Shown one piece after another: positions 11,354-35,187 of a DNA stretch of 64,000 bases. The translations under genes and the position numbers were made by a program. The notes below the pieces were generated by a model. The model was given only the letters and a program-made list of their open reading frames with translations, searched no databases and was not told the DNA's origin. The DNA is taken from the NCBI GenBank assembly GCA_947625655.1, contig CANQPD010000006.1, forward strand, positions 1 to 64,000. Direction: 5' to 3'. This stretch comes from an uncultured Dysosmobacter sp. Its GTDB lineage: Bacteria > Bacillota > Clostridia > Oscillospirales > Oscillospiraceae. Within the stretch, counting starts at the first letter, position 1. Each line of letters starts with the position of its first letter.

Positions 11354-11476
11354 ATGAAGAGCAGTGAATGGGGAACGCATCGGGCCAGGCAACTGGAAAC
11401 AGATTGCCGATCATGCGGTTATGCATACCTGAAATGTGTTGAACCTGATTGCGGCAGCGGATACTTTTACGTTTAG
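11354..11476 (+). CDS. Candidate 40-aa zinc-ribbon-like small protein
   Basis: ATG AAG AGC ... TAG open frame: MKSSEWGTHRARQLETDCRSCGYAYLKCVEPDCGSGYFYV; ends 10 nt before the helicase ATG. Confidence 0.3.
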   Translation: MKSSEWGTHRARQLETDCRSCGYAYLKCVEPDCGSGYFYV

Positions 11477-11486
11477 GGGGGCTTTG

Positions 11487-14400
11487 ATGGAAAGATCGAT
11501 CGCGTTCATTGACAGCGAAATTGGTGTCGATGATAAGAAAATACATGATCTGGGTGCCGTTCGCAATGACCGGGCCTCATTCCACAGCGCCTCTGTTTGG
11601 GAATTTTCAGAGTTTATTGCCGATGTGGAATTCCTCTGCGGCCATAATATCATCCACCATGATATGGCATATATAAGGCCGCATTTGGCAGATGGCTTTT
11701 CGGCAAAATGCATTGATACCCTTTACCTCTCCCCCTTGCTGTTCCCAAAGCGCCCCTATCACGCACTTTTAAAGGACGATAAACTTCAGGTGGATGAGCT
11801 GAATAATCCACTGAATGACGCCCGGAAAGCGGAGAAGCTGTTCTACGACGAGGTAAATGCTTTTTACAGCCTGTCTTCTGCGAAAAGGCGGATATATTGC
11901 TGTCTGCTCTACCAGTTTGAAGAGTTCCGGGGCTTTTTCAACTATGTAAATTTTGCGCCGCATCGTTTCAATGCAGAAGAACTGATCATAAGCGAATTTT
12001 ATGGAAAAATCTGCGCGAACGCCAATTTGGCGGTACTGATCAAACATTATCCGGTTGAACTTGCCTATGCCCTTGCGCTGATTTCCAGCAGGGATTATCG
12101 TTCTGTCACTCCCCGCTGGCTCCTGAAGAACTATCCTAAAATTGAGAACGTCATCAAGTATTTATGCAGCACCCCCTGTAAGGAGGGCTGCGAGTACTGC
12201 TCCTCCGTTTTGGACATTCACAAGGGCCTGAAACGAATTTTCGGATATGACAGTTTTCGCACCTATAATGGCGAGCCCCTGCAGGAGCGTGCGGCACAGG
12301 CGGCAGTAGACGGAAAATCGCTGCTGGCCGTCTTTCCAACAGGCGGCGGCAAGTCCATTACATTTCAGCTTCCTGCACTCATGGCGGGAAACGCGGTTCA
12401 TGGCCTGACAGTGGTCATTTCGCCGCTGCAGTCACTTATGAAAGATCAGGTTGACAACCTGAATGCTCTGGGCATTGTCGATGCTGTCACTGTAAACGGC
12501 CTGCTTAGCCCAATAGAAAGAGCGGATGCCTATGAGCGCGTGGCGAACGGCTTGGCAACGATACTTTATATCTCGCCGGAACAGCTTCGGTCAAAGACGA
12601 TTGAAAAAATGCTGCTGTCCCGCAGCATCGTTCGTTTTGTCATTGATGAGGCACATTGCTTTTCCGCGTGGGGACAGGATTTTCGCGTTGATTATCTTTA
12701 TATCGGTGACTTTATCCGCGAACTGCAGAAACAGAAGGGGGATAAGAGGCCGATCCCTGTGTCGTGCTTTACTGCCACGGCCAAGCAAAAGGTCATCAGT
12801 GATATCTGCGATTATTTTAAGCGCAAACTGGACCTGGACCTTGAACTGTTTGCGTCCGCGGCAACACGCGGGAACCTCCACTATGCTGTGCTGTTTAAGG
12901 AAACGGAGGAGGAAAAATACACAGCGCTTCGCGCTTTGATCGAGCAGAAAGACTGCCCGACGATCGTCTATGTCTCCCGCACAAAACGGACGAGAGAACT
13001 GGCCGATAAGTTGAACAGCGACGGGTTCCCCGCAAGACCGTTTAACGGAAAAATGGACCCCAATGAGAAAATTGAAAATCAGGAAGCATTTATGCGGAAC
13101 GAGGTCAAAGTAATCGTCGCAACCTCGGCTTTTGGCATGGGCGTAGATAAAAAAGACGTCCGGTTAGTGGTTCATTACGACATTTCGGACTCGCTTGAAA
13201 ACTATGTGCAGGAAGCCGGACGTGCCGGACGCGATCCGGCGTTGGAGGCGGATTGTTATGTCCTTTTCAATGACAATGATTTGGATAAGCATTTCATTCT
13301 GCTCAACCAGACGAAACTGAGCATCAGCGAAATTCAGCAGGTCTGGAAAGCAATCAAGGATTTGACGAAGCTCCGCCCCAATATAGCCTGCTCTCCCCTG
13401 GAGATTGCCCGCCAGGCTGGCTGGGATGACTCTGTCACTGATATTGAAACGCGGGTGAAGACCGCGGTTGCCGCATTGGAAAATGCCGGTTATATCAAGC
13501 GCGGGCGCAATGTTCCCCGCATTTTTGCCACCAGCATCCTTGTGCGAAATATGCAGGAAGCCAGCTTTAAAATCGATCAGTCGCGGCATTTTACTGACCA
13601 GCAGCGGCAGGATGCGAAACGCATTATGAAATCCCTGATTTCAAGCCGAAGCATTGCGAATGCCGGAAATGATGATGCTGAATCTCGCGTAGATTACCTT
13701 GCGGATATTCTGGGGATCCGGAAGTCCGATGTTATAACCGCAATCAATTTGATGCGTCAGGACGGCCTGCTGGCAGATTCTCAGGATATGTCGGCCTATA
13801 TTCTCAAGGCCGACACGCAGAACAAGTCCCTTCAAATTCTGGATCGTTTTGCCAAGCTGGAGGATTTTATTTTTGAGAAACTTCCGTCGGATGGATGCAT
13901 CATTGATTATAAAGAGTGGAACGAGGCGGCACTTGCCGCGGGAATCACAAGCTCCAGCGTTAAAAATCTTAAGACCCTGCTGCACTACCTGACGATTAAA
14001 AATGATATCCGCAAAGTGGAGGATGCGGAAAGCCACACGGCGATGATTCAGCCCACAATGTCCTGTGACCTTTTGACAGCCAAATTCAAGCGCAGAATGG
14101 ATGTTTGCCGTTTCATCGTAGGCGAGCTCTATGAACGCGCTGAGCAAAGAACGGATGAACGTACAGACGAAACGCCGGTGCTCTTCTCTCTCGTAGGACT
14201 TTTCAATGCTTACAAGGAGACCCGGCGGCTTGACATGGATTATGCCGTTGTCACCCTGGATGATATATCTGACGCGCTTTTGTACCTCTCAAAAATTGGA
14301 GCGATGAAACTTGAAGGCGGATTTCTGGTATCCTACAACGCTATGCAAATCAAGCGCCTTGTTACGGACAACCGTATCAAGTACAAGGTGGACGATTATC

Positions 14401-16283
14401 GGATGCTGGACGAGTTTTATAAGCAAAAGATCCAACAGATCCACATTGTCGGAGAATATGCGAACCTGATGACGCAAAATTACTTTGCTGCGCTGCAATT
14501 TGTTCAGGACTATTTCCGGATGGATTTCAGGCGGTTTATTTCCAAGTATTTCAGAGGCGAGAGAATCAAAGAAATCGACCGCAATATCACGCCTCAAAAG
14601 TATCACCAGCTTTTCGGGGAGCTCTCGGATATTCAGTCCAAAATCATCAATGACAATGCGTCTAAATATATTGTTGTCGCCGCCGGCCCCGGCAGCGGCA
14701 AGACACGTGTGCTGGTACATAAGCTGGCTTCTCTGCTTTTGCTGGAGGATGTAAAACACGAGCAGCTCTTGATGCTTACATTCTCGCGGGCAGCGGCAAC
14801 CGAGTTCAAAAAGCGCTTGCTCGGGCTGATTGGAAACGCTGCCAATTTCGTTGAAATCAAAACATTCCATTCATATTGCTTTGATCTTCTTGGAAAGATC
14901 GGCAGTTTGGAAGGGGTTGAGGACGTTGTAAAAAACGCGGCCGAAATGATCCAAAACGGCGAAGTTGAACCCGGTAGAATTATGAAGAGCGTTCTGGTCA
15001 TCGATGAAGCGCAGGATATGGATGCCCATGAGTTTGCACTGGTGCAGGCGCTGATCCGGGCGAATGATGATATGCGTGTCATTGCAGTGGGTGACGACGA
15101 CCAGAACATCTATGAATTCCGCGGCTCCAATTCCAAGTACATGGCCGCATTGCTTAGCCGCTATGGCGCGGTAAAGTATGAGATGGATGAAAACTACCGC
15201 AGCAAGGCCGGCATTGTGTCTTTGAGCAACGCCTTTATTGCCGCCATGCAGAATCGTATGAAAACCGCTCCCATTCAGGCGGTTCAATCCGAAAGCGGCA
15301 CAGTTGAAATGACACATTATATTTCGGAAAATATGGAGGCAGGACTCGTCAACCAGGTGCTTCAGACAGACCGCGGCGAAACATCTTGTATCCTGACAAA
15401 CACGAATTATGAGGCGCTGCAAATAGTCGGCCTGCTCACCCGGAAAGGAAAACGGGCAAAGCTGATCCAATCCAATGATGGATTCAGCTTGTATAACCTT
15501 GCGGAAGTGCGCTTTTTCTTGAAGTATATTGATGAGCGGTTGAATTCTCCGGTAATTGATGATAGGCTTTGGAACCAGGCAAAAGAACGGCTGTCAACCG
15601 TGTATTCCGGCAGCAGCTGCCTGCCAAACTGCTTGAAAATGCTGGAGGAATTTGAAAAGGCAAATTCGACGAAGTTCCGCACAGACGTTGGTGAATTTAT
15701 CAGAGAATCCAACTATGATGACTTTTATGAGGATGATGGGGACACGATCAGCGTTTCCACAATTCACAGGGCGAAAGGGCGTGAATTTCACACAGTCTAT
15801 TTGTTCTTAAAGAATATAACTGTGCTGAATGATGAGACGCGCCGAAAGCTGTATGTAGCCCTGACGCGGGCGAAAGATTCCTTGTACATCCATTGCAACA
15901 CCAATTTATTTGACCACGATACTTTGGCCGGTATTGTTCAAAAAACGGATACATCCGCGTATCATGAACCTAATGAAATCCTGATGCAGCTCACCCATAA
16001 GGATGTTGTGCTGAACTTCTTCAAGGATAAAAAAGAAGTTATCTTGAATATGCGCAGCGGAGATGCCCTTGCAGTTTCCGGGATTTATCTGACCGCTGAG
16101 GTGAACGGCCGGACGATATCAGTTGCGAAATTTTCAAAAGCGTTTCAAGAAAAACTAGACCTGTTGGCATCACAGGGATATCAACCATATACGGCAGCGG
16201 TCAGTTATGTTGTTGCGTGGCAGGGAGAAAATGATGAGGAGGAATCCGCAGTCCTTCTCCCAATGCTGAGCTTGCGCAAATAA
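11487..16283 (+). CDS. Multidomain DEDD exonuclease - RecQ helicase - UvrD/Rep helicase fusion (~1598 aa)
   Basis: Exo: IAFIDSEIG...LCGHNIIHHDMAYI...NDARKAEKLF; RecQ: VFPTGGGKSITFQLPAL, FVIDEAHCFSAWGQDFR, SCFTATAK, SAFGMGVDKKDVRLVVHYDISDSLENYVQEAGRAGRD; UvrD: VVAAGPGSGKTRVLVHKL, VLVIDEAQDMD, AVGDDDQNIYEFRGSN, STIHRAKGREF, LYVALTRAKDSL; RBS aggggggctttg. Confidence 0.95.
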   Translation: MERSIAFIDSEIGVDDKKIHDLGAVRNDRASFHSASVWEFSEFIADVEFLCGHNIIHHDMAYIRPHLADGFSAKCIDTLYLSPLLFPKRPYHALLKDDKLQVDELNNPLNDARKAEKLFYDEVNAFYSLSSAKRRIYCCLLYQFEEFRGFFNYVNFAPHRFNAEELIISEFYGKICANANLAVLIKHYPVELAYALALISSRDYRSVTPRWLLKNYPKIENVIKYLCSTPCKEGCEYCSSVLDIHKGLKRIFGYDSFRTYNGEPLQERAAQAAVDGKSLLAVFPTGGGKSITFQLPALMAGNAVHGLTVVISPLQSLMKDQVDNLNALGIVDAVTVNGLLSPIERADAYERVANGLATILYISPEQLRSKTIEKMLLSRSIVRFVIDEAHCFSAWGQDFRVDYLYIGDFIRELQKQKGDKRPIPVSCFTATAKQKVISDICDYFKRKLDLDLELFASAATRGNLHYAVLFKETEEEKYTALRALIEQKDCPTIVYVSRTKRTRELADKLNSDGFPARPFNGKMDPNEKIENQEAFMRNEVKVIVATSAFGMGVDKKDVRLVVHYDISDSLENYVQEAGRAGRDPALEADCYVLFNDNDLDKHFILLNQTKLSISEIQQVWKAIKDLTKLRPNIACSPLEIARQAGWDDSVTDIETRVKTAVAALENAGYIKRGRNVPRIFATSILVRNMQEASFKIDQSRHFTDQQRQDAKRIMKSLISSRSIANAGNDDAESRVDYLADILGIRKSDVITAINLMRQDGLLADSQDMSAYILKADTQNKSLQILDRFAKLEDFIFEKLPSDGCIIDYKEWNEAALAAGITSSSVKNLKTLLHYLTIKNDIRKVEDAESHTAMIQPTMSCDLLTAKFKRRMDVCRFIVGELYERAEQRTDERTDETPVLFSLVGLFNAYKETRRLDMDYAVVTLDDISDALLYLSKIGAMKLEGGFLVSYNAMQIKRLVTDNRIKYKVDDYRMLDEFYKQKIQQIHIVGEYANLMTQNYFAALQFVQDYFRMDFRRFISKYFRGERIKEIDRNITPQKYHQLFGELSDIQSKIINDNASKYIVVAAGPGSGKTRVLVHKLASLLLLEDVKHEQLLMLTFSRAAATEFKKRLLGLIGNAANFVEIKTFHSYCFDLLGKIGSLEGVEDVVKNAAEMIQNGEVEPGRIMKSVLVIDEAQDMDAHEFALVQALIRANDDMRVIAVGDDDQNIYEFRGSNSKYMAALLSRYGAVKYEMDENYRSKAGIVSLSNAFIAAMQNRMKTAPIQAVQSESGTVEMTHYISENMEAGLVNQVLQTDRGETSCILTNTNYEALQIVGLLTRKGKRAKLIQSNDGFSLYNLAEVRFFLKYIDERLNSPVIDDRLWNQAKERLSTVYSGSSCLPNCLKMLEEFEKANSTKFRTDVGEFIRESNYDDFYEDDGDTISVSTIHRAKGREFHTVYLFLKNITVLNDETRRKLYVALTRAKDSLYIHCNTNLFDHDTLAGIVQKTDTSAYHEPNEILMQLTHKDVVLNFFKDKKEVILNMRSGDALAVSGIYLTAEVNGRTISVAKFSKAFQEKLDLLASQGYQPYTAAVSYVVAWQGENDEEESAVLLPMLSLRK

Positions 16284-23070: not shown

Positions 23071-24258
23071 TCAATAGCACTTGCGATAGATGGCCTCTTC
23101 GCTCTCCAGATCGAAGGGATAGTAGGCGTTGGTCATCAGGCGCTGCTGGTTGGCCTCGACAGACAGGGGGAAAGCCTTGAAGTCGGCCTCGGTGAAGCCG
23201 CAGTCCCTCAGGGGGCGCAGGGGCAGGATGCGCTGCAGCAGGGCGTTCAGCTCGGGGATGGCGTTCTTGGCCTCGCAGCCCAGGATGCTGGCGATCAGCT
23301 CCTTGAACTTCATGATCTCGCCGTCGGGGTCGTGCTCGTCATAGTAGTCCAGGATGGCGCCGAAGAGCATGTAGTTGCTCTCGCCGTGGGGCACATGATA
23401 GGTGCCGCCCAGAGGGAAGCTCATGCCGTGGACAGGGCCGCAGCCGGCCTTCAGGAAGGCGATGCCGGCGTAGAAGGAGGCGGTGACGAACTGATCCATA
23501 TACTCGAACCGGGCGTCCTGGCCCTTCTCGTCCAGCAGCTTGAAGCCCTTCAGGATCATGTCCATGGCCTTCTCGCTGAAGAGCTCACTGGTGGTGGTCT
23601 TGCGGTGGGGGCTCAGGAAGGACTCGGTGGCGTGCACCAGGGCGTCGATGGCGGAGCAGGCGAAGGGCTTGTAGGGCAGGGTGCGCAGCAGGTCGGGGAT
23701 CAGGCAGACCTTGTTGGGGATGATGTCGTCGGACACCAGGCCCAGCTTGGTCTCGCCGCCGGTCAGCACGCCGTCCTTCTCGTCCTTGACGATGGCCACG
23801 GAGATGTTGGTGCACTCAGAGCCGGTGCCGCAGGTGGTGGGGATGGCGATAACGTCCTTCTCATGCACCACGGGGAAGCGCTTGAAGTACAGGTTGTGGA
23901 CCGTGTCGGGGCGCTGGCAGCCCAGCAGCTTGCACAGGTCCATGATGGCGCCGCCGCCCACGGCGATGACGCGGTCATAGCTGTCGTAGGGGATGGCGTC
24001 GTACATGGTCTGGATCATGGCCTCGGAGGGCTCGCCGGCGCCGAACTTCTCCTGGAAGACGAACTGGCACTTCAGGCCCAGCTCCTCCATGAAGGGCTTG
24101 TAGATGAACTCGTTGGTCAGCACCACGTCCCGGTCGTTCAGCTTGAATTCCTCCGCCATCTGGGCGAAGGTCTGGAACTTGTACACGGTGGGAGCGAAGA
24201 TGATCTCGCGCTTATCGGCCATCAGAGAGGCGGAAAATGCGTCCATTGCTTTAGCCAT
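23071..24258 (-). CDS. Iron-containing alcohol dehydrogenase (4-hydroxybutyrate dehydrogenase-like)
   Basis: VIAVGGGAIMDLCKLLG; VIAIPTTCGTGSECTNISVAIV; GPVHGMSFPLGGTYHVPHGESNYMLF. Confidence 0.88.
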   Translation of the reverse strand: MAKAMDAFSASLMADKREIIFAPTVYKFQTFAQMAEEFKLNDRDVVLTNEFIYKPFMEELGLKCQFVFQEKFGAGEPSEAMIQTMYDAIPYDSYDRVIAVGGGAIMDLCKLLGCQRPDTVHNLYFKRFPVVHEKDVIAIPTTCGTGSECTNISVAIVKDEKDGVLTGGETKLGLVSDDIIPNKVCLIPDLLRTLPYKPFACSAIDALVHATESFLSPHRKTTTSELFSEKAMDMILKGFKLLDEKGQDARFEYMDQFVTASFYAGIAFLKAGCGPVHGMSFPLGGTYHVPHGESNYMLFGAILDYYDEHDPDGEIMKFKELIASILGCEAKNAIPELNALLQRILPLRPLRDCGFTEADFKAFPLSVEANQQRLMTNAYYPFDLESEEAIYRKCY

Positions 24259-24337
24259 TGGAATCAACTCTCCTTTGCATAAAATATAAAGTATTTTGAC
24301 ACCGCCCCGGCTTCCGCCGGGGCGGCAGTCAACGGAT

Positions 24338-25312
24338 TTACTTGCGGGCCACGGCCTTCTTCACGGCCGCGACGATGTTGGCGGCGCGGAGGCCGTACTC
24401 GTCCATCAGGAAGTCCTGGGGACCCACCTGGCCGAACTGATCCTGCACGCCCACGAACTCCTGGACAGTGGGGCGGTTCTTGGCCAGGCAGTTGGCAACC
24501 ACACTGCCCAGGCCGCAGGTGACGTTGTGGTTCTCGGCGGTGACAATGGCGCCGGTCTCCTTGGCGGCCTTGAGGACCAGCTCCTCGTCCAGGGGCTTCC
24601 AGGTGAACATGTCGATGACCCGGACGGAAATGCCCTCGGCCTGCAGAGCCTCATAGGCCTTCAGGGACTCGTCCACCATGATGCCGGAGGTGATGATGGT
24701 GGCAGCGTCGTTCTCGCTCTCGTGCAGGACGACGCCCTTGCCGATCTCGAACTCGGAGCCCTCGCCGTAGACCTGGATGATGCCCTTGCGGACAAAGCGG
24801 GTGAAGGTCACGCCCTTCTTGATGGAGGGCAGCTGGCGGGTGATGCTGGCCAGCTGATCGTAGTCGGCGGGGTCCAGCACGGTGGTCTCGGGGATGCTCA
24901 GGTACATGCCGGCATCCTCCAGAGGCATATGGGTGCCGCCGTTGAAAGCGGCGGTGACGCCGGCGTCGGAGGCCAGGACATGGACGGTCAGGCCGGCGTA
25001 GGCGGCGGACATGTAGATCTGGTCATAGCAGCGGCGGGAGGAGAAGGTGCCGAAGGAGTGGAAGAACACGGTCTTGCCGGTGGCGGCGAGGCCGGCGGCC
25101 ACGCCGGCGGCGTTGCCCTCGGCAATACCGGCCTCGAAGGCCCGGTCGGGATAGTTCTTGCGCAGCATCTTGGTGTTGATGCAGCCCATCAGGTCGCAGT
25201 CCACATAGCAGATGGACTGATCCTCCGCCATCATCTCGTTCAGGGTCAGAGCGAGAGCGTCGCGGCAGGCGCGGGAATCTTTCTTGTGCTCACCAATCAG
25301 TTTCACGTTCAT
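24338..25312 (-). CDS. Transketolase, C-terminal subunit
   Basis: FEAGIAEGNAAGVAAGLAATGKTVFFHSFGTFSSRRCYDQI; split transketolase partner upstream. Confidence 0.92.
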   Translation of the reverse strand: MNVKLIGEHKKDSRACRDALALTLNEMMAEDQSICYVDCDLMGCINTKMLRKNYPDRAFEAGIAEGNAAGVAAGLAATGKTVFFHSFGTFSSRRCYDQIYMSAAYAGLTVHVLASDAGVTAAFNGGTHMPLEDAGMYLSIPETTVLDPADYDQLASITRQLPSIKKGVTFTRFVRKGIIQVYGEGSEFEIGKGVVLHESENDAATIITSGIMVDESLKAYEALQAEGISVRVIDMFTWKPLDEELVLKAAKETGAIVTAENHNVTCGLGSVVANCLAKNRPTVQEFVGVQDQFGQVGPQDFLMDEYGLRAANIVAAVKKAVARK

Positions 25313-25327
25313 TGCTCGTACCCTCCC

Positions 25328-26161
25328 TTAAGCGTTCTTGGCATCTTCCAGAGCCTTTTCAGCGGCGGCCAGAGCCTCGGCCCACTGTTCTTCGTTGGGC
25401 TGAGAGGAGTGGTCGTGCTTGGGCTCGGCAAAGGTAGCGCCCTTGCCCTTGCAGGTGTCCAGCACGATGCAGCTGGGCACGCCCTTCTTGGCGTAGGCGT
25501 TCTGGATGGCGTTGTAGATGGCGGTCACGTCATGGCCGTCGATCTCCTGGGTGTACAGGCCGAAGGCCTCGGCCTTCTTGGCCAGGTCGCTGTGGGCCAG
25601 GATGTCGTCGGTGGGGCCGTCCAGCTGATAGCCGTTCTTGTCGATGAAGAAGATCAGGTTGTCCAGCTTGTGGGCGTAGGCGAAGTGGAACGCCTCCCAG
25701 ACCTGGCCCTCATCGGCCTCGCCGTCGCCCACCACGCAGAAGACATGGCTGTCACGGCCGTCGATCTTGTTGCCCAGGGCCGCGCCGGTGGCGGTGGAGG
25801 TGCCCTGGCCCAGGGAGCCGGTGGTCAGGTCCACGCCGGGGGTCAGCTTGCGGTCCGTGTGGCTGGGGAACTTGGTGTGGGGATGGTTCAGGGTATAGGC
25901 GTCCTCCATGGGATAGAAGCCCATCAGGCCGTAAGTGGCGTAAGCCACGGGGCCCGCGTGGCCCTTGGACAGGACCAGCCAGTCGCGGTCCTCCCAGCGG
26001 GGATTCTTGGGATCGAACTTCATGACCTCTCCATACAGAACGGCCATCAGATCGGCCAGGTCCATGGAGCCGCCCACATGGCCGAAGCCCCGGGAGTGGA
26101 TGACCTTCAGGGTCTCCAGCCGGATCTCGGCCGCCAGAACTTTGCATTTCTTCTCGTTCAT
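25328..26161 (-). CDS. Transketolase, N-terminal (TPP-binding) subunit
   Basis: GHVGGSMDLADLMAVLY; VLSKGHAGPVAYATY; GSLGQGTSTATGAAL; CVVGDGEADEGQVWEAFHFA. Confidence 0.95.
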   Translation of the reverse strand: MNEKKCKVLAAEIRLETLKVIHSRGFGHVGGSMDLADLMAVLYGEVMKFDPKNPRWEDRDWLVLSKGHAGPVAYATYGLMGFYPMEDAYTLNHPHTKFPSHTDRKLTPGVDLTTGSLGQGTSTATGAALGNKIDGRDSHVFCVVGDGEADEGQVWEAFHFAYAHKLDNLIFFIDKNGYQLDGPTDDILAHSDLAKKAEAFGLYTQEIDGHDVTAIYNAIQNAYAKKGVPSCIVLDTCKGKGATFAEPKHDHSSQPNEEQWAEALAAAEKALEDAKNA

Positions 26162-26223: not shown

Positions 26224-27243
26224 TTACAGATATGATTGGAATTCGTCCATGCGGACGGGCCGCCGCTCCCTGGCGGAGCGGGTGCAGGCCATGGCCAGCA
26301 GCGTGGCCTTTTGGGCGTCTTCCGCGCCCACGGGGACCGGGTAATCGTTTTCCACAGCGTCAACAAATTGCCGCACTTCCTCCTGGAAGGCGGGCAGATA
26401 GCGCTCTAAAAAGAACCAGAGGGGCCTTTCCGCCGTGACGCCTCCGGCGGTGGAGAGCACAGCGGTGGACGGCGTGTCGTTGCCGATGGAGACACAGCCG
26501 CGGGAGCCGAAGACCTCCGCCCGCTGGTCATAGCCGTAGACCGCCTGACGGGAGTTGTCGATCAGCGCCAGCGCGCCGCTTTCAAGACGCAGCACAACGG
26601 CCGCGGTGTCGATATCCCCGGCCCGGCCGATGGCCTCGTCCACCAGGACGCTGCCCGCGGCGTACACCTCCTCCACCTCGCTGCCGGAGAGGAAGCGCAC
26701 CATATCCAGATCATGGACCGTCATGTCCAGAAACAGCCCGCCGGAGGACGGGATGAATTTGGGCGCCGGCGGTTCGGAATCCCGGGAGCAGATCTTCACC
26801 ACCTGGACCTGACCGATCCTCCCCTCGGCAACGGCGCGGCGGAGGGCCTGGAAGTTGTGGTCAAACCGGCGGTTGAATCCCACTTGATATTTTAAACCAG
26901 AAACCGCCGCTTCGTCAATGACAGTTTGTATTTTAACAAGCCCCAGATCCACGGGTTTTTCACAGAACACATGCTTTCCCGCCCGCAGGGCCTCCACGGA
27001 GATATCCGCGTGAGTGCTGGTGGGGGAGCAGATCAGCACCGCGTCGATGCGGGAATCCCGCAGCAGGGCGCGGTGATCCTGAGTGAGGATCTCCGCGCCC
27101 GCGCTGCGGGCAAGCTGTTCGATCTCTTCGGTGATGTGCGGGGCGGCGATGCCCCGGATGTGAGCGCCCGGGACGCCGGAGAGGATACCGCGGATGTGGA
27201 CCCGACCGATCCGTCCCACACCAATGATACCAAGCTGCAGCAT
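26224..27243 (-). CDS. Gfo/Idh/MocA family oxidoreductase, inositol 2-dehydrogenase-like
   Basis: LGIIGVGRIGRVHIRGILSGVPGAH; CEKPVDLGLVKIQTVIDEAA; GFNRRFDHNFQAL; FLDMTVHDLDMVRFLSGSEVEEVYA. Confidence 0.88.
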   Translation of the reverse strand: MLQLGIIGVGRIGRVHIRGILSGVPGAHIRGIAAPHITEEIEQLARSAGAEILTQDHRALLRDSRIDAVLICSPTSTHADISVEALRAGKHVFCEKPVDLGLVKIQTVIDEAAVSGLKYQVGFNRRFDHNFQALRRAVAEGRIGQVQVVKICSRDSEPPAPKFIPSSGGLFLDMTVHDLDMVRFLSGSEVEEVYAAGSVLVDEAIGRAGDIDTAAVVLRLESGALALIDNSRQAVYGYDQRAEVFGSRGCVSIGNDTPSTAVLSTAGGVTAERPLWFFLERYLPAFQEEVRQFVDAVENDYPVPVGAEDAQKATLLAMACTRSARERRPVRMDEFQSYL

Positions 27244-27274: not shown

Positions 27275-28843
27275 TTATTCGTACTGGGTGCCCGCGCCGT
27301 CCACCATGGCGTCATAGGCACGCTTGACCTTGTCGTAGTTCTTGTCGCGGTCCAGCACCACGCCGCGGCCCACGCCGTCCACGATGCGGCCCACGCCGAT
27401 GGCATCCAGCCTGGCGTCCGTCTCGGCCAGCAGGGCGGGGGCGGAGCCGGGCTCAGTGGAGCGGCCGTCGAAGATGATGTGCAGATACACACGGTCCAGG
27501 CCGTTGTCCCGGGCCATCTCGCAGATGTTCAGGGGGTAGTCGATGCAGCCGTGGGAGGACTTGTAGGTCAGGTAGGCCAGCAGATGCAGGCTGGTGCCGT
27601 TGCGCTTGGCGTGCTCGATGGCCTCCAGGAAGATGGGGTTCTGCTTGAAGCTGCCGTCCTTCACGGCGGCGTCCAGGCGGACGTCATCCTGCATCACGCA
27701 GCGGCCGGCGCCCAGGTTGGAGTGGCCGGCCTCGGAGTTGCCGGCCTTGCCGGCGCCCAGGCCCACATACTCGCCGGAGGCGTGGAGCTTGGACCAGGAC
27801 TGGTTGGCCAGCAGAGAATCCCAGTAGGGGGTGTCCGCCACGTGGATGGCGTCGCCCTCGTCGCCGGTGCCCAGGCCCCAGCCGTCGCAGATGATGAGGA
27901 GCATCTTGCGGTCCTTGCCCCAGTCCTTGCCCTCGCACAGGGAGTGGCCGGACATCTCGGCGGGCTGGGGGATGCCCAGAACGTCCAGCACGGTGGGAGA
28001 CACGTCGCCCAGGGAGCCGTCCCGCAGGGTGATGGGGCTGGGATCGGCGGGGTCGATCATGATAAAGGGCACCAGGTTGGTGGTGTGGGCGCCGTCGGGC
28101 TTGCCGGCGGCGGTGTACAGCTTCTCAATATTGCCGTGGTCGGCGGTGATGGCCACCACATAGCCCTTGGACAGCGCGTCGTTGACCACCACGTCCAGAT
28201 AGTGGCTGACATGGCCGCAGGCCTCGATCTTGGCGGCGGTGTTCTGGGTGTGGCCGATGACGTCGCCGTTGGCGAAGTTGGTGACGATGAAGTCGTACTT
28301 GCCCAGGGCCTCGGTCAGCTTCTCCGCCACGGTGGGCAGGGACAGCTCGGGCTTCTGGTCGAAGTCGATGCCCTTGGGGGAGGGGATGCACAGATCGTCC
28401 TCGCCGGGGAAGGGGTTGTTCTCGCCGCCGTTGAAGAAGAAGGTCACATGGGCGAACTTCTCGCTCTCGGCACAGTGGAACTGGCTCTTGCCGGCCTCGG
28501 AGAGCACCTGGGCCAGGGGCTTCACCACCTTGGCGGGGGCGAAGGCGATGGGCAGATTCTTGAACTTGTCGTGGTACATGGTCATGATGACGAAGTCCAG
28601 ATCGTTGAGCTTGCGGCGCTCCACCTTGTCAAAGCCCTCTTCGGTGAACATCTCGGTCAGCTCGATCTCCCGCTCGCCCCGGCGGCAGCAGAAGATGGCG
28701 GCGTCGCCGTCGGAGATCTTGCCCACGGGCTTGCCGTCCTCCACCAGGACCATGGGCTCCAGGTGGTAGTCGTCCTGCCCCAGTTCGTATGCTCTCTTGA
28801 CGGCTTCGGCCAGCTGGGCGCCGCCGCGCTTGATATCAGACAT
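27275..28843 (-). CDS. Cofactor-independent phosphoglycerate mutase homolog with circularly permuted sequence order
   Basis: N-half matches canonical iPGM C-half (KFAHVTFFFNGGENNPFPGED, NFANGDVIGHT, ITADHGN, AHTTNLVPF, PAEMSGHSL); C-half matches canonical iPGM N-half (LLIICDGWGLGTGDEGDAI, GKAGNSEAGHSNLGAGR, FDGRSTEPGSAP, LDRDKNYDKVKRAYDAMVDG). Start at ATG 28843 after ggaggtattttct. Confidence 0.9.
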   Translation of the reverse strand: MSDIKRGGAQLAEAVKRAYELGQDDYHLEPMVLVEDGKPVGKISDGDAAIFCCRRGEREIELTEMFTEEGFDKVERRKLNDLDFVIMTMYHDKFKNLPIAFAPAKVVKPLAQVLSEAGKSQFHCAESEKFAHVTFFFNGGENNPFPGEDDLCIPSPKGIDFDQKPELSLPTVAEKLTEALGKYDFIVTNFANGDVIGHTQNTAAKIEACGHVSHYLDVVVNDALSKGYVVAITADHGNIEKLYTAAGKPDGAHTTNLVPFIMIDPADPSPITLRDGSLGDVSPTVLDVLGIPQPAEMSGHSLCEGKDWGKDRKMLLIICDGWGLGTGDEGDAIHVADTPYWDSLLANQSWSKLHASGEYVGLGAGKAGNSEAGHSNLGAGRCVMQDDVRLDAAVKDGSFKQNPIFLEAIEHAKRNGTSLHLLAYLTYKSSHGCIDYPLNICEMARDNGLDRVYLHIIFDGRSTEPGSAPALLAETDARLDAIGVGRIVDGVGRGVVLDRDKNYDKVKRAYDAMVDGAGTQYE

Positions 28844-28865
28844 AGAAAATACCTCCGGTTTTAAA

Positions 28866-28975
28866 TTAATAATTGATAATTGAGAATTGATAATTAAATA
28901 ATGATCGGAAATGGATAATTGGACGTTTCTCATGAACACCCAATTATCAATTATCCATTATAAATTATCAATTGT
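28866..28975. repeat. AT-rich inverted repeat
   Basis: aataattgataattgagaattgataattaaataat ... caattatcaattatccattataaattatcaattg in an otherwise GC-rich region. Confidence 0.85.
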
Positions 28976-28977
28976 TT

Positions 28978-29754
28978 TCACTGCCCGTCGTCGGGGGCGG
29001 TCAGCTTATCGACAGCCACCTGGCCCCGGGCGGGGAAGATGTCCAGCAGCTGGGGGAAGGTGTAGACCTTGGCGTCGGGCATGTTCTCCTCGGTAAGCTT
29101 CAGGGGCTTGTTTTTGTTGTACTGCACGGCCACGGTCATGCCGAAGTCGCAGGCCTTGGCGCCCACGATGTCACGGTTCAGGTTGTCGCCCACGTAGCAG
29201 CAGTTCTGAGGCAGAGCGCCCACCTCTTCCATGGCGTAGTAGTAGATGGCGGGGCCGGGCTTGCGGACGTAGGTGATGGAGGACTGCTGCACGGTCTTGA
29301 AGTAGGGCCGCAGGCCGTCGTTGTCCAGCCACTCGTCCACCTCCCGCTTGCCCACCAAATCACTGATGATGCCCAGGGTGTAGCCCCTGGCGCACAGCTC
29401 CTTGACGGTCTCGGCGCCGCCGGCCACCACGGTGCGGCGGCCCTTGGTCTGGCGGTACTGATAGGTCAGCTCGGCGGCGTTCTTCAGGATCAGCTCCTGG
29501 TCCATGTCATAGGCCAGCCAGCGGGTCCACAGGACCTCTTCGGGAGCCTCGCACATAAATTTCAGCGCCCATTCGCGGTACTTGTCATAGCGCTTGTCGA
29601 TGACCTCGTCAAACCACTTGTTGGCATCGTCGGTTTCCACGCCGCAGAGCTGGGCGATCTTGGCCCGGGCGGCGGAGAGATAGGCGGGGTCCTCGTCGAT
29701 GACGCGGAAGGTGCCGCCCAGATCCAGGAAAATGAAGCGGATGTCGGTGTTCAT
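28978..29754 (-). CDS. HAD-like hydrolase 1
   Basis: FIFLDLGGTFRV; LGIISDLVG; VRKPGPAIYYY; CYVGDNLNRDIVGAK. Confidence 0.9.
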   Translation of the reverse strand: MNTDIRFIFLDLGGTFRVIDEDPAYLSAARAKIAQLCGVETDDANKWFDEVIDKRYDKYREWALKFMCEAPEEVLWTRWLAYDMDQELILKNAAELTYQYRQTKGRRTVVAGGAETVKELCARGYTLGIISDLVGKREVDEWLDNDGLRPYFKTVQQSSITYVRKPGPAIYYYAMEEVGALPQNCCYVGDNLNRDIVGAKACDFGMTVAVQYNKNKPLKLTEENMPDAKVYTFPQLLDIFPARGQVAVDKLTAPDDGQ

Positions 29755-29887: not shown

Positions 29888-30631
29888 TCAGTTTTGAGAA
29901 AGGGGCGGCAGCAGGTCCAGGATCTCCCGGAAGTCCTGAATAACAGCGTCGGGGCGGGTTTCCTCGGTGAACTCCACGGGGTGCTTCTTCTCCGGGGAGG
30001 AGAAGATGATGTTGCAGCCCACGCCGGCCTTCTTGGCGCCGGGGATGTCCCGCTTGATGTTGTCGGCCACGGACACGCAGTCCGCCAGCTCCACGCCCAT
30101 CTCCTTGGCGCACAGCTGATAGATCTCGCCGCAGGGCTTGCGCATATGGCACACAGAGGAGAGGACGACGGAATCGAAGTATTTGTCCAGGCCGTCCTCC
30201 TCCAGCCAGTCGGGGACCTCGTTTTCGCCGATCAGGTTGGAGATGATGCCCAGGCGGTAGCCCCGCTCGTGGAGGCCCTTGATGACCTCCACGCCGCCGT
30301 CCACGACGACGCGGCGGCCCTTGCACTGGCGGTACTGGAAGCTCAGCTCATGGCAGACCTGCCTGATGCGGGCCGGATCGTAGTCGGGCAGCAGCCACTT
30401 GCACCACAGTTCCTCGTCGCCGGACTCCTTGTTCTCGCCCAGGGCCCACTTGCGGTAGGGCTCATAGCGCGCCTCGATCATCTGGTAAAATTCCTCATAG
30501 GGAACAGGAGAGCCTGCGATCTCCGCCATCTTCCGGCGGGCGTGCTTCATATAAGGCTCCTCTAACAGGGCGATGCGCAGAGTGCCGCCCAGGTCAAAGA
30601 ATACCGCCTTATAACGCTTGTTCTGGTCCAT
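29888..30631 (-). CDS. HAD-like hydrolase 2
   Basis: AVFFDLGGTLRIALLEEP; LGIISNLIG; MRKPCGEIYQL; VSVADNIKRDIPGAK. Confidence 0.9.
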   Translation of the reverse strand: MDQNKRYKAVFFDLGGTLRIALLEEPYMKHARRKMAEIAGSPVPYEEFYQMIEARYEPYRKWALGENKESGDEELWCKWLLPDYDPARIRQVCHELSFQYRQCKGRRVVVDGGVEVIKGLHERGYRLGIISNLIGENEVPDWLEEDGLDKYFDSVVLSSVCHMRKPCGEIYQLCAKEMGVELADCVSVADNIKRDIPGAKKAGVGCNIIFSSPEKKHPVEFTEETRPDAVIQDFREILDLLPPLSQN

Positions 30632-30652: not shown

Positions 30653-31387
30653 TTAATTCAGCGCGGGGAAGATGTCCAGCAGCTCGGACAGGGAAGTGAT
30701 GACGTGGTCGGGGGTGAACTCCTTGCCGGTGGCGTGCTCCATATTCAAGGTGTCCGGCTCGTCAATGCGGATCATCATGCCGAAGCCGGCGGCCTGGGTG
30801 CCCTCCACGTCCCGCACCGGGTTGTCGCCGACGTAGGCGCAGTTGGCCTCCGGGGTGCCGATGCAGCGGCAGGCCAGATGATAGATGTCGGGATCGGGCT
30901 TGCGCAGGCGGACCTTGGAGGACAGGATGGTGGTCTTGAAGCACTGGGCCACACCGTCGGCGGCCATCCAGTCGGGGATCTCCGTCTCGGTGACGGTGTT
31001 GGCGATGATGCCCAGGGTATAGCCCCGGGCGCACAGCTCCTTTAAGGTGGCCACGGCGTCGGGACGGGCCACGCGGCGGCCGTCGTGGTCGCGCCACAGG
31101 CGGGTCAGGCGGGCGGCGTTGGCAAAGATCATGTTGGGCTCATAGTCGGGCAGCATGTACTGGGTCCACAGCTCGCCCTCGGAGGCGTCCAGCAAAGTGG
31201 TCTTGGACAGCTTGCGGTACTTCTTCCACCGCTCCTCCAGCTTGGCGAACAGCTCGTCGTGGCTCTCCTTGGTCTGGATCAGCTCCATCAGGCCGGCCTC
31301 GGCCTGATCGATGAACGCCTGGTCCTTCACCACCACGCGCAGGGTGTTGCCAACGTCAAAGAAAATGGTTTTGATCTCGGGGGCCAT
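30653..31387 (-). CDS. HAD-like hydrolase 3
   Basis: TIFFDVGNTLRVVVKDQ; LGIIANTVT; LRKPDPDIYHL; AYVGDNPVRDVEGTQ. Confidence 0.9.
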   Translation of the reverse strand: MAPEIKTIFFDVGNTLRVVVKDQAFIDQAEAGLMELIQTKESHDELFAKLEERWKKYRKLSKTTLLDASEGELWTQYMLPDYEPNMIFANAARLTRLWRDHDGRRVARPDAVATLKELCARGYTLGIIANTVTETEIPDWMAADGVAQCFKTTILSSKVRLRKPDPDIYHLACRCIGTPEANCAYVGDNPVRDVEGTQAAGFGMMIRIDEPDTLNMEHATGKEFTPDHVITSLSELLDIFPALN

Positions 31388-31417: not shown

Positions 31418-32176
31418 TTATTTTGGTTGATTATAGGAACGGATGATTCCGGGGATCTCGCTGAGATCGTCGATCAGGACGTCCGGCGCCAGGCCGGTGC
31501 CGGCAAAGGCGGTGTCCCGGTGGGCGATGGAGGGGTTTCGGATCTGGATGCTGAGGGCCACTCCGGCGTTCCGGCAGCCCAGGACATCCCGGGAGAGGGT
31601 GTCGCCCACATAGGCCATCTCCCGGCAGGGAACGCCGCATTGGGCGGCAGCCAGTTCAAAGATGGCGGGGTCGGGCTTGCGGATGCCCGCGGAGGCCGAA
31701 ATGACCAGGCAGGACATGTACTGCGCGATGCCGTAGTCCTCCGCCAGCCGGGGGACAAAGGAGGTGGAGATCATGTTGCTGATGATGCCCTGGACCATCC
31801 CCATCTCATGCAGGGTCTCAATGGTCTGGCGCATATGGGGCCTGGGCACGTTTTTCACCCGGGTGGCGTCGTACATCCAGGACAGCTCCTCGGCAATGGG
31901 GGCCAGGAGTTCCTCGCCGATCTGGAAGTCCTTTAAATAAAACTCGCTCCAGATACGGGGACTGGGAAGCTCGACGCGGGATTCCTCCGACCAGTGCTTG
32001 TAGGCCTCGGCGTTTTCGTGGAGCAGGGGCGTCAGCGCCGCCGCGCCGATGGGAAGGGCGACGCCGTGGGCAGACAGGATATCCAGCAGCCGCTGGGAGA
32101 AGCGGTCGGCCATCTCCTGGTCGTGATGGACCTCGTGGAGCGTGCCGCCGACGTCGAAAAGGACTGCGCGGATCAT
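31418..32176 (-). CDS. HAD-like hydrolase 4
   Basis: AVLFDVGGTLHEVHHDQ; QGIISNMIS; IRKPDPAIFEL; AYVGDTLSRDVLGCR. Confidence 0.9.
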   Translation of the reverse strand: MIRAVLFDVGGTLHEVHHDQEMADRFSQRLLDILSAHGVALPIGAAALTPLLHENAEAYKHWSEESRVELPSPRIWSEFYLKDFQIGEELLAPIAEELSWMYDATRVKNVPRPHMRQTIETLHEMGMVQGIISNMISTSFVPRLAEDYGIAQYMSCLVISASAGIRKPDPAIFELAAAQCGVPCREMAYVGDTLSRDVLGCRNAGVALSIQIRNPSIAHRDTAFAGTGLAPDVLIDDLSEIPGIIRSYNQPK

Positions 32177-32494: not shown

Positions 32495-33499
32495 ATGAAA
32501 AGTGTGACCTTGAAGGATGTGGCCAAGGCGGCCGGCGTCTCCTATGCCACGGTTTCCCGGGCTTTATCCGGCAGCCCCCAGATCGGCAGCGATACCCGGG
32601 AGCGCATCATCAAGCTCTGCGACGAGATGGGCTATACCACCAATTACGTGGCCCGCTCCATGGTCATGAAGAAGACGGACCTCATCGGCCTGGTGGTCCC
32701 CTCCATCGACAACCAGTTTATGTCGGAACTGGCCTATTACGCGGAGATGAGCGCCCGGGCCCACGGCTACAACATCATGCTGTGCAACTCCGGCCCCGAC
32801 CTGAAGCAGGAGAAGACCGTGGTCAAGCTGCTGCTGGGCCGCCAGGTGGACGGCATCCTCATCGTGCCCCAGAGCCCCAAGACCTATGAGAATATCCGGG
32901 CCTACACCGACCAGGTGCCCACGGTGTTCCTCAGTGAGAACCTGCGGGACCAGCCCCAGAGCTATGTGGCGGCGGACAACAGCCGCGGCACCTACATCGG
33001 CACCAAATACCTCTATGAGCTGGGCCACCGGGATATTCTGTACTTCGGCCGCCGCCACACCACCACCCACCAGCTCCGGGCGGAGGGGTATATGAAGGCC
33101 TGCCAGGAGCTGGGGCTCCAGCAGCGGTTCTTCAACAGCGAGTTTTCCCGCTCCTCCGTGAACAACGGCTATGAGCTGGCAAAGGAGCTGTTCTCCAAGC
33201 CCATCGATTACTCCGCCATCTTTGCCTCCACGGACTCCAACGCCCTGGGCCTGCTGAAGGCGGCGGACGAGCTGCGCATCGACGTTCCCGGCCGCCTGAG
33301 CCTGATCGGCTTCGACAACATTCCCTCCACGGCCCTGCCCCGCATCGAGCTGACCACCATCGAACAGCCCAAGCGGGAGATGGCGGTTCAGGCGGTGGAC
33401 ATGCTGCGGGACAAGATCGAAAACGGCACCCAGGGCTATGTCCATCAGATCCTGATGCCCAGCCTGATCAAGCGCAGCACCTGCCGGGCGCTGGAGTGA
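32495..33499 (+). CDS. LacI family transcriptional regulator
   Basis: MKSVTLKDVAKAAGVSYATVSRALSGSPQIGSDTRERIIKLCDEMGYTTNYVARSM; IGFDNIPSTALPRIELTTI. Confidence 0.97.
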   Translation: MKSVTLKDVAKAAGVSYATVSRALSGSPQIGSDTRERIIKLCDEMGYTTNYVARSMVMKKTDLIGLVVPSIDNQFMSELAYYAEMSARAHGYNIMLCNSGPDLKQEKTVVKLLLGRQVDGILIVPQSPKTYENIRAYTDQVPTVFLSENLRDQPQSYVAADNSRGTYIGTKYLYELGHRDILYFGRRHTTTHQLRAEGYMKACQELGLQQRFFNSEFSRSSVNNGYELAKELFSKPIDYSAIFASTDSNALGLLKAADELRIDVPGRLSLIGFDNIPSTALPRIELTTIEQPKREMAVQAVDMLRDKIENGTQGYVHQILMPSLIKRSTCRALE

Positions 33500-33577: not shown

Positions 33578-34303
33578 ATGAACGGCTATTTGTACGATCC
33601 CCATACCCACACCGCGGAGACCAGCAGGTGCGGCCACCTGCCCGCCGCCGAGGTGGTGGACCGCTATGTGGCAAAGGGCTTTACCGGCCTGGTGGTGACG
33701 GATCACCTCCACCCGGAGTACCTGTCCCGCATCGACACCCAGCACAACTGGGACGCGGTGATGGATCACTATCTCTCCGGCTACCACGCCTCCAAGAAGC
33801 GGGGCGACGAGGTGGGCTTCGACGTGATCCTGGGCGCGGAGTTCCGCTTCCCCGAGAACGACAACGACTATCTGGTCTACGGCATCGACGAGCAGTGGCT
33901 CCGCTCCCACCCCTACGCCTGCTGCATGAGCGCTCAGGAATTCTTTGCGAAGTTCCACGATGAGGTGCTCATCATCCACGCCCATCCCTACCGGGACGGC
34001 AACACCACCGTGTTTGAGGACGCCGTCCACGGCTCCGAGATCATCAACAGCAACCCCCGCCACAAAAACCACTCCGATCTGGCCCTGGACCTGTGCCGCC
34101 GCCATCCCGGTTTTTACCGCCTGGCCGGGTCCGACACCCACCAGGCCGGGGACGAGGCCCGGGCGGGCGTCATCCTGCCTGAGCGGGTGGGAGACTCCTA
34201 TGCCTATAAGCACATGATCGAAACGCTCCAATTCCAGCTGTGGAGCCCTGAATTCCAGTCCTATGTGGACGCGGATGAAAAGATGCGAAAGGAAGGCAAG
34301 TAA
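33578..34303 (+). CDS. PHP domain phosphoesterase
   Basis: LYDPHTHTAETSRCGHLPAAEVVDRYVAKGFTGLVVTDHL; VLIIHAHPYRDG; LAGSDTHQAGD. Confidence 0.85.
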   Translation: MNGYLYDPHTHTAETSRCGHLPAAEVVDRYVAKGFTGLVVTDHLHPEYLSRIDTQHNWDAVMDHYLSGYHASKKRGDEVGFDVILGAEFRFPENDNDYLVYGIDEQWLRSHPYACCMSAQEFFAKFHDEVLIIHAHPYRDGNTTVFEDAVHGSEIINSNPRHKNHSDLALDLCRRHPGFYRLAGSDTHQAGDEARAGVILPERVGDSYAYKHMIETLQFQLWSPEFQSYVDADEKMRKEGK

Positions 34304-34305
34304 GT

Positions 34306-35187
34306 ATGAGTCAGCAGTTTGATTCCCTCATCATCGGCGAGGTGGCCCAGGACACCAATGTGGACTACGACGGCACCACCATCCAGGCCGTGGGCGGCGC
34401 GGTGTACTACTCCGGCTTCGCCGCCGCCAACATGGGCCACAAGATCGCGGTGCTGCCCAAGGCGGACACCACGAAGATCGATATGGCGGCCGCCTTCGCG
34501 GACGCGCCCAACGTCACTGTGTTCCCCCTGCACAGCAAGACCTCCTTTGTCACCAAGAACGTGTACCACACTCCCGACCGGGAGCGCCGCACCTCCACGG
34601 TGGACAGCGTCATCGAGCCCTACAAGACCTCCGAGGTCCCGGAGATCGACGCCAAGATCTGGCACCTGGCCGGTCTGGTGGGCGGCGACATCACCGATGA
34701 GATGATCCCCTTTGCCGCCAAGCACGCCATGGTGGCCATCGATGTGCAGACCATGCTGCGCTGCGTGGAAAACGGCGGCATGGTGTACCACGACTGGGCG
34801 GCGAAGAAGGAGATGCTGCCCTACATCCGTTTCCTGAAGACCGACGCCGCCGAGGCGGAGATCCTCACCGGCACCGATGACCGGGCCGCCGCCGCCAGGA
34901 TGCTGTACGACTGGGGCGCCAAGGAGATCCTCATTACCCACAACACCGAGGTCCTGGTGTATGACGGCAGGGAGATCTATACCTGCCCCATCAAGTCCCG
35001 GAACATGTCCGGCCGCACCGGCCGGGGCGACACCACCTTCGCCGGTTACATCAACGAGCGCCTGACCAAGGACATCCCCACCGCCCTCCAGACCGCCACC
35101 GCGCTGGTCTCTCTGAAGATGGAGACCCCCGGCCCCTTCATGGGCACCCGGGCCGATGTGGAGAATTACATCAAGGAATTCTATTAA
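34306..35187 (+). CDS. PfkB family carbohydrate kinase
   Basis: IIGEVAQDTNVDYDGTTIQAVGGAVYYSGFAAANMGHKIAVL; TGRGDTTFAGYINERL. Confidence 0.88.
   Translation: MSQQFDSLIIGEVAQDTNVDYDGTTIQAVGGAVYYSGFAAANMGHKIAVLPKADTTKIDMAAAFADAPNVTVFPLHSKTSFVTKNVYHTPDRERRTSTVDSVIEPYKTSEVPEIDAKIWHLAGLVGGDITDEMIPFAAKHAMVAIDVQTMLRCVENGGMVYHDWAAKKEMLPYIRFLKTDAAEAEILTGTDDRAAAARMLYDWGAKEILITHNTEVLVYDGREIYTCPIKSRNMSGRTGRGDTTFAGYINERLTKDIPTALQTATALVSLKMETPGPFMGTRADVENYIKEFY

Follow-up and report, generated by a model that had tools for sequence, protein, structure and literature searches.

A naturally circularly permuted paralogue of cofactor-independent phosphoglycerate mutase in Bacillota and Chloroflexota

The gene described here lies on the minus strand of a 64,000-nucleotide stretch (the window) of contig CANQPD010000006.1 from an uncultured Dysosmobacter sp. 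Its product, which we call cpPGM, is a natural circular permutant of the cofactor-independent phosphoglycerate mutase (iPGM, GpmI), with new ends located inside the transferase domain. On balance, we favor the view that this permuted iPGM, having arisen once, is an accessory enzyme of the phosphoserine type that acts on an imported organophosphate distinct from 2- and 3-phosphoglycerate. It is uncommon for a natural circular permutation to open a domain of a conserved enzyme in central metabolism. Members of two phyla share the permutation of cpPGM as a fixed feature, along with a matched set of changes in the active site, and the family offers a testable case of permutation combined with a likely shift in specificity. 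Literature searches, with subscription journals mostly outside their coverage, returned nothing relevant on a permuted iPGM or on permutation in this superfamily, in line with an earlier note on this DNA, made from the letters alone, which knew of no such description. A survey of phosphoglycerate mutases (PGMs) in 702 genomes reports that iPGM paralogues are rare, and a term search of its main text found no mention of permutation.

Order of the halves, fold and active site

The open reading frame of cpPGM is one uninterrupted frame, starting with ATG at 28843 and ending with the stop codon at 27277-27275. The gene and its parts are as follows.

27275..28843, minus strand: cpPGM, circularly permuted iPGM paralogue, 522 amino acids plus stop
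28852..28856, minus strand: ribosome-binding site GGAGG, just upstream of the start
27938..28843, minus strand: cpPGM residues 1-302, corresponding to canonical iPGM residues about 218-508 (BLASTP, phmmer)
27905..27937, minus strand: new linker CEGKDWGKDRK, residues 303-313 (sequence; high-confidence model)
27278..27904, minus strand: cpPGM residues 314-522, corresponding to canonical iPGM residues about 5-213 (BLASTP, phmmer)

Residues 1-302 form the remainder of the transferase domain followed by the C-terminal part of the phosphatase domain. The linker bridges the old C and N termini of iPGM, and residues 314-522 contain the old N terminus, the Ser62 nucleophile, and the first part of the transferase domain. 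BLASTP against the canonical GpmI encoded in the same genome yields two high-scoring segment pairs in swapped order, aligning cpPGM residues 14-302 to 220-501 (41% identity, 4e-64) and 316-521 to 8-213 (41% identity, 4e-52). The iPGM of B. stearothermophilus (1EJJ) is matched by phmmer in the same manner, 13-302 to 218-508 and 313-521 to 5-213, with a total E-value of 2e-105. The Pfam profile iPGM_N is split along cpPGM, its positions 134-216 preceding positions 2-132. Chance is excluded as the source of the swapped match. The earlier note had read the two halves as exchanged and had placed the new termini inside the transferase domain; the alignments confirm both points and locate the break at about residue 213/218 in iPGM numbering.

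An AlphaFold2 model of cpPGM, calculated from an alignment of 32 sequences, has a pLDDT of 93.6 and a pTM of 0.84. The predicted fold is that of iPGM: iPGMs account for all 22 matches in the PDB at E<=0.001. The best of these, 1O99, 1O98, and 1EJJ, are substrate-bound forms, which superpose at 2.6-2.8 Å over 276 columns. A sequential alignment of the model to iPGM yields a TM-score of 0.48 over about half of the chain, as the permutation predicts, since with a permuted chain a sequential aligner is limited to a single part.

Conservation of the active site was counted over 33 permuted and 18 canonical sequences, with residues numbered according to 1EJJ. The metal ligands and nucleophile (D12, S62, D403, H407, D444, H445, and H462), which the earlier note had described as intact, are invariant in 33/33 permuted sequences, and so are H123, R153, R185, R191, R261, R264, and K336. 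Of the nine substrate contacts that PMC3886921 gives for iPGM, eight are retained throughout. The exception is D154, lost in 33/33, which is replaced by serine in 32 sequences and by an aligned glycine in the divergent member from genome G719, where the local motif LGRRGE makes the alignment uncertain. Further substitutions, G121S, V122S, S124G, N259C, F260R, A265E, and M189L, are fixed or nearly fixed relative to all 18 canonical sequences. The segments SSHG, DGRS, and CCRRGERE, noticed previously as departing from the canonical ones, are real differences, conserved across the permuted family. The altered substrate that had been suggested from them is supported indirectly. Loss of Asp154, the presence of a second PGM, and the operon context argue for it; the arginines that contact the substrate are kept, however, and the change appears narrower than the motifs had implied.

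The retained residues and the model suggest that cpPGM is probably active. As a mutase or a phosphatase, it most likely still works through two metals and a phosphoserine, like the rest of the family. The active site would be rebuilt despite the permutation, and Ser62 would take the substrate phosphate as phosphoserine, after which a different hydroxyl or water would receive it. With Asp154 lost and Arg260 gained, the acceptor may have changed.

Among known families, cpPGM is closest to GpmI (TIGR01307; PF06415 + PF01676; 1EJJ, 1O98). It matches TIGR01307, PF06415, and PF01676 above cut-off and shares about 41% identity per half with the GpmI of its own genome, as well as the predicted fold, all metal ligands, and Ser62. 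It differs from GpmI in its permuted rather than canonical N-to-C domain order, the absence of Asp154, the clade-specific SSHG, GRS, and CRRGERE segments, and its accessory status within an operon of catabolic type. Archaeal-type iPGM (apgM, TIGR00306, PF10143) also belongs to the alkaline phosphatase superfamily, and an apgM gene adjoins cpPGM in loci L048 and L049; cpPGM, however, has no PF10143 match and only a weak local match to TIGR00306 (29.9 bits against a cut-off of 320), and membership was rejected. The same applies to phosphopentomutase (DeoB), a phosphomutase of the same superfamily: cpPGM carries iPGM_N and has only weak local matches to DeoB profiles (28.6 against 254 bits and 23 against 256 bits).

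Distribution, origin and coexisting phosphoglycerate mutases

Scanning the species genomes of GTDB yielded 51 loci: 43 carry a full-length permuted homologue and three a partial one at a contig end; four (L056-L059) are in canonical order, and one (L061) is too short to judge. Five close relatives of full length, at least one of them from a genome already in the GTDB scan, came in addition from whole-genome searches. Ten further permuted members, with about 40% identity to the protein of the window, occur in four other Bacillota families, and the divergent member in G719 was found via the Chloroflexota genome G706. In total, close to 60 other full-length homologues share the order of cpPGM. 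Their hosts belong to Oscillospiraceae, Lachnospiraceae, Erysipelotrichaceae, other Bacillota, and Chloroflexota, and include metagenome-assembled genomes as well as the isolates An411, An860, An890, and Oscillibacter sp. 1-3. The survey of homologues called for by the earlier note thus reveals the same order in many independent genomes. An assembly or annotation artefact joining two loci is excluded by this recurrence, isolates included, and we assign it a negligible probability.

In a tree of the 33 permuted sequences, rotated to canonical order, and the 18 canonical sequences, the two groups are separated by one branch with support of 100/99. The canonical set is a small sample, mostly from the same genomes, and wider sampling could move the point of attachment. 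Because the permuted sequences form one clade, a single permutation event fits the origin of the family. Its occurrence among anaerobic Bacillota and Chloroflexota is patchy, even within one genus, where 3/6 genomes have the gene.

The window genome encodes a canonical GpmI at another locus, on contig C3 beside a gene that reads as triosephosphate isomerase; this is the second, normal gpm gene whose search had been proposed. In 23 of the 29 genomes examined, iPGM_N also has a full-length canonical match in addition to the permuted gene; two genomes (G211 and G698) share coordinates and are probably one genome counted twice. Five others (G349, G684, G422, G706, and G707) have no such match, but encode an archaeal-type iPGM above cut-off, with a GpmA-type enzyme in addition in G706 and G707. 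No other PGM above cut-off was found in G704, a genome of 1.0 Mb that may be incomplete. Since another PGM is present in 28/29 genomes, a role of cpPGM as the sole PGM of its hosts was rejected, and gene content indicates that it is not their housekeeping mutase.

cpPGM could instead be an isofunctional second PGM, perhaps condition-specific or serving imported phosphoglycerates. Its retained metal ligands, Ser62, H123, substrate arginines, and K336 are consistent with this, as is its score of 451 bits against the TIGR01307 equivalog cut-off of 331. Owing to that score, standard pipelines would call the protein a phosphoglycerate mutase, which is probably a misannotation. We consider isofunctionality unlikely, because D154 is replaced in 33/33 sequences, the changes at positions 121, 122, 124, 259, 260, and 265 are absent from the sampled canonical iPGMs, nearly all genomes have another PGM, and the operons are catabolic and importer-linked, not glycolytic.

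Genomic neighborhoods and candidate substrates

In most architectures, cpPGM is adjacent to an ABC importer of the sugar-phosphate/phosphonate type (broad AfuA/PhnS2/P5PA type), and HAD-family proteins with a DxGxT motif often stand beside it. The names of the GntR, regulator, and ATPase genes given below, and of the GDPD genes except that in L028, were read by eye from translations. The unit in Erysipelotrichaceae consists of a substrate-binding protein, ATPase, permease, ATPase, and cpPGM, the genes overlapping or lying 18 nt apart; here and in clade 2, cpPGM overlaps or closely trails an ATPase gene. In rumen Chloroflexota the order is HADs, cpPGM, permease, ATPase, and substrate-binding protein, and in groundwater Chloroflexota it is HADs, cpPGM, apgM, and a PRK-like kinase, with an ABC transporter further on. 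The window genome has two importer cassettes at other loci, each with a HAD gene and one also with GDPD, LacI, and PfkB genes. An importer cassette in L141 includes L141_9 (L141 9837-10880), by eye an endonuclease/exonuclease/phosphatase-like protein, for which no relative in the PDB was found by sequence.

That the importer and cpPGM form the minimal recurring unit suggests that conversion of the imported ester to a usable one is the task of cpPGM itself. An imported anionic organophosphate would thereby be converted to a form accessible to central metabolism. The neighboring substrate-binding proteins and fused permeases belong to the broad group of AfuABC, which takes up hexose and heptose phosphates (PMC4546632), and of the 2-aminoethylphosphonate importers (PhnS2/PhnU2). 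They differ in being distant from these and below the family cut-offs, and their sequence does not predict the ligand. The substrate-binding proteins match AfuA (4R72), P5PA (6WCE), and PhnS2 distantly, and a ligand assignment from PDB neighbors was dropped because the matches are too distant. Several points speak against a distinct imported substrate: the substrate-binding proteins have only remote relatives of known ligand, clade 3 (L075, L078, and L079) and G719 have no importer nearby, and with eight of nine phosphoglycerate contacts kept, 2- or 3-phosphoglycerate could still be a substrate. The operon points to an organophosphate pathway, so far uncharacterized, in bacteria common in gut and rumen. 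We tentatively entertain the more far-reaching idea that the permutation came with a new phosphomutase or phosphatase, which in anaerobes of gut, rumen, and groundwater would be the central enzyme of an organophosphate uptake pathway not yet described, its minimal unit being the importer and the permuted enzyme.

The operon of clade 2 is composed of GntR, a cyclic-2,3-diphosphoglycerate synthetase homologue, substrate-binding protein, permease, ATPase, and cpPGM. The synthetase homologue, present in the cpPGM operon of L072 (3864-5207), L073, L074, L077, and L124, matches 8ORK/8ORU/9SXB with an E-value of about 1e-133. These bacterial homologues in an importer operon contrast with the statement that cyclic 2,3-diphosphoglycerate occurs exclusively in hyperthermophilic archaeal methanogens (PMC10690619). 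cpPGM might accordingly act on 2,3-bisphosphoglycerate or a derivative of the cyclic compound, for example moving phosphate between mono- and bisphosphoglycerate; the substitutions D154S and F260R would create space for a second phosphate. We regard this as improbable, since the clade 1 and clade 3 genomes tested, that of the window among them, have no synthetase homologue, and the importer and HADs are left unexplained.

The Oscillibacter layout is LacI / HADs (two to five), cpPGM, in a minority of loci an IolG-like gene, a split transketolase, and an iron-containing alcohol dehydrogenase, with PHP and PfkB genes on the other side. The corresponding genes in the window are listed below.

23071..24267, minus strand: iron-containing alcohol dehydrogenase (profile match, synteny)
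24338..25312, minus strand: transketolase C-terminal subunit (profile match, synteny)
25328..26161, minus strand: transketolase N-terminal subunit (profile match, synteny)
26224..27243, minus strand: inositol 2-dehydrogenase-like protein (IolG), TIGR04380 above cut-off
28978..29754, minus strand: HAD-family protein 1, motif I DLGGT
29888..30631, minus strand: HAD-family protein 2, motif I DLGGT
30653..31387, minus strand: HAD-family protein 3, motif I DVGNT
31418..32176, minus strand: HAD-family protein 4, motif I DVGGT
32495..33499, plus strand: divergent LacI-type regulator (translation read by eye; synteny)
33578..34303, plus strand: PHP-domain protein (just under Pfam cut-off; synteny)
34306..35187, plus strand: PfkB-family kinase close to TM0415, with RxGRGD signature (sequence)

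These neighbors raise a more specific form of the organophosphate hypothesis for the Oscillibacter clade, in which cpPGM would shift or remove the phosphate of a phosphorylated inositol or related polyol before dehydrogenase and kinase steps. The PDB entries nearest to the IolG-like protein are 3EZY and 4HKT. The kinase is nearest to TM0415, which phosphorylates myo-inositol with pyrophosphate and is encoded in an inositol operon (PMC5931981); the RxGRGD signature, proposed for pyrophosphate-dependent kinases of the ribokinase family (PMC5931981), is found in 26 other loci. GDPD genes lie nearby in L028, L037, L042, L043, L054, and L141, and a UxaE-family gene in L048. We nevertheless doubt an inositol-type substrate: the IolG-like gene is restricted to a minority of sister loci, it and the TM0415-like kinase are absent from Erysipelotrichaceae and rumen Chloroflexota loci, and the arginines that are kept point to a substrate with an anionic group next to its phosphate. 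The Km of TM0415 for inositol is itself high, which left the true acceptor of TM0415 open (PMC5931981). The inositol-type and 2,3-bisphosphoglycerate-type proposals each explain the neighbors of one clade and not those of the others.

Motif I of the tandem HAD paralogues is D-x-G-x-T, not D-x-D, in 116/116 HAD reading frames matched by a motif scan of the window and related loci; only frames with a motif of roughly this form could match, and near-copies occur among the loci. The phosphatase YihX of E. coli carries D-x-G. With this counter-example, the argument that glycine in place of the second aspartate prevents the HADs from being phosphatases was dropped.

Between HAD-family protein 1 and cpPGM, at 28859-28976, the window contains an AT-rich palindromic element with 32-nt arms that are 88% complementary; in sister loci L005 and L006, this gap is about 27 nt. 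The element is probably a MITE-like (miniature inverted-repeat transposable element) or REP-like (repetitive extragenic palindromic) insertion, because related stretches recur at about a dozen other sites in the genome. Elsewhere in the window, 11436-16283 holds a 1615-residue open reading frame that reads by eye as a RecQ-type helicase fused to a UvrD/Rep-type helicase.
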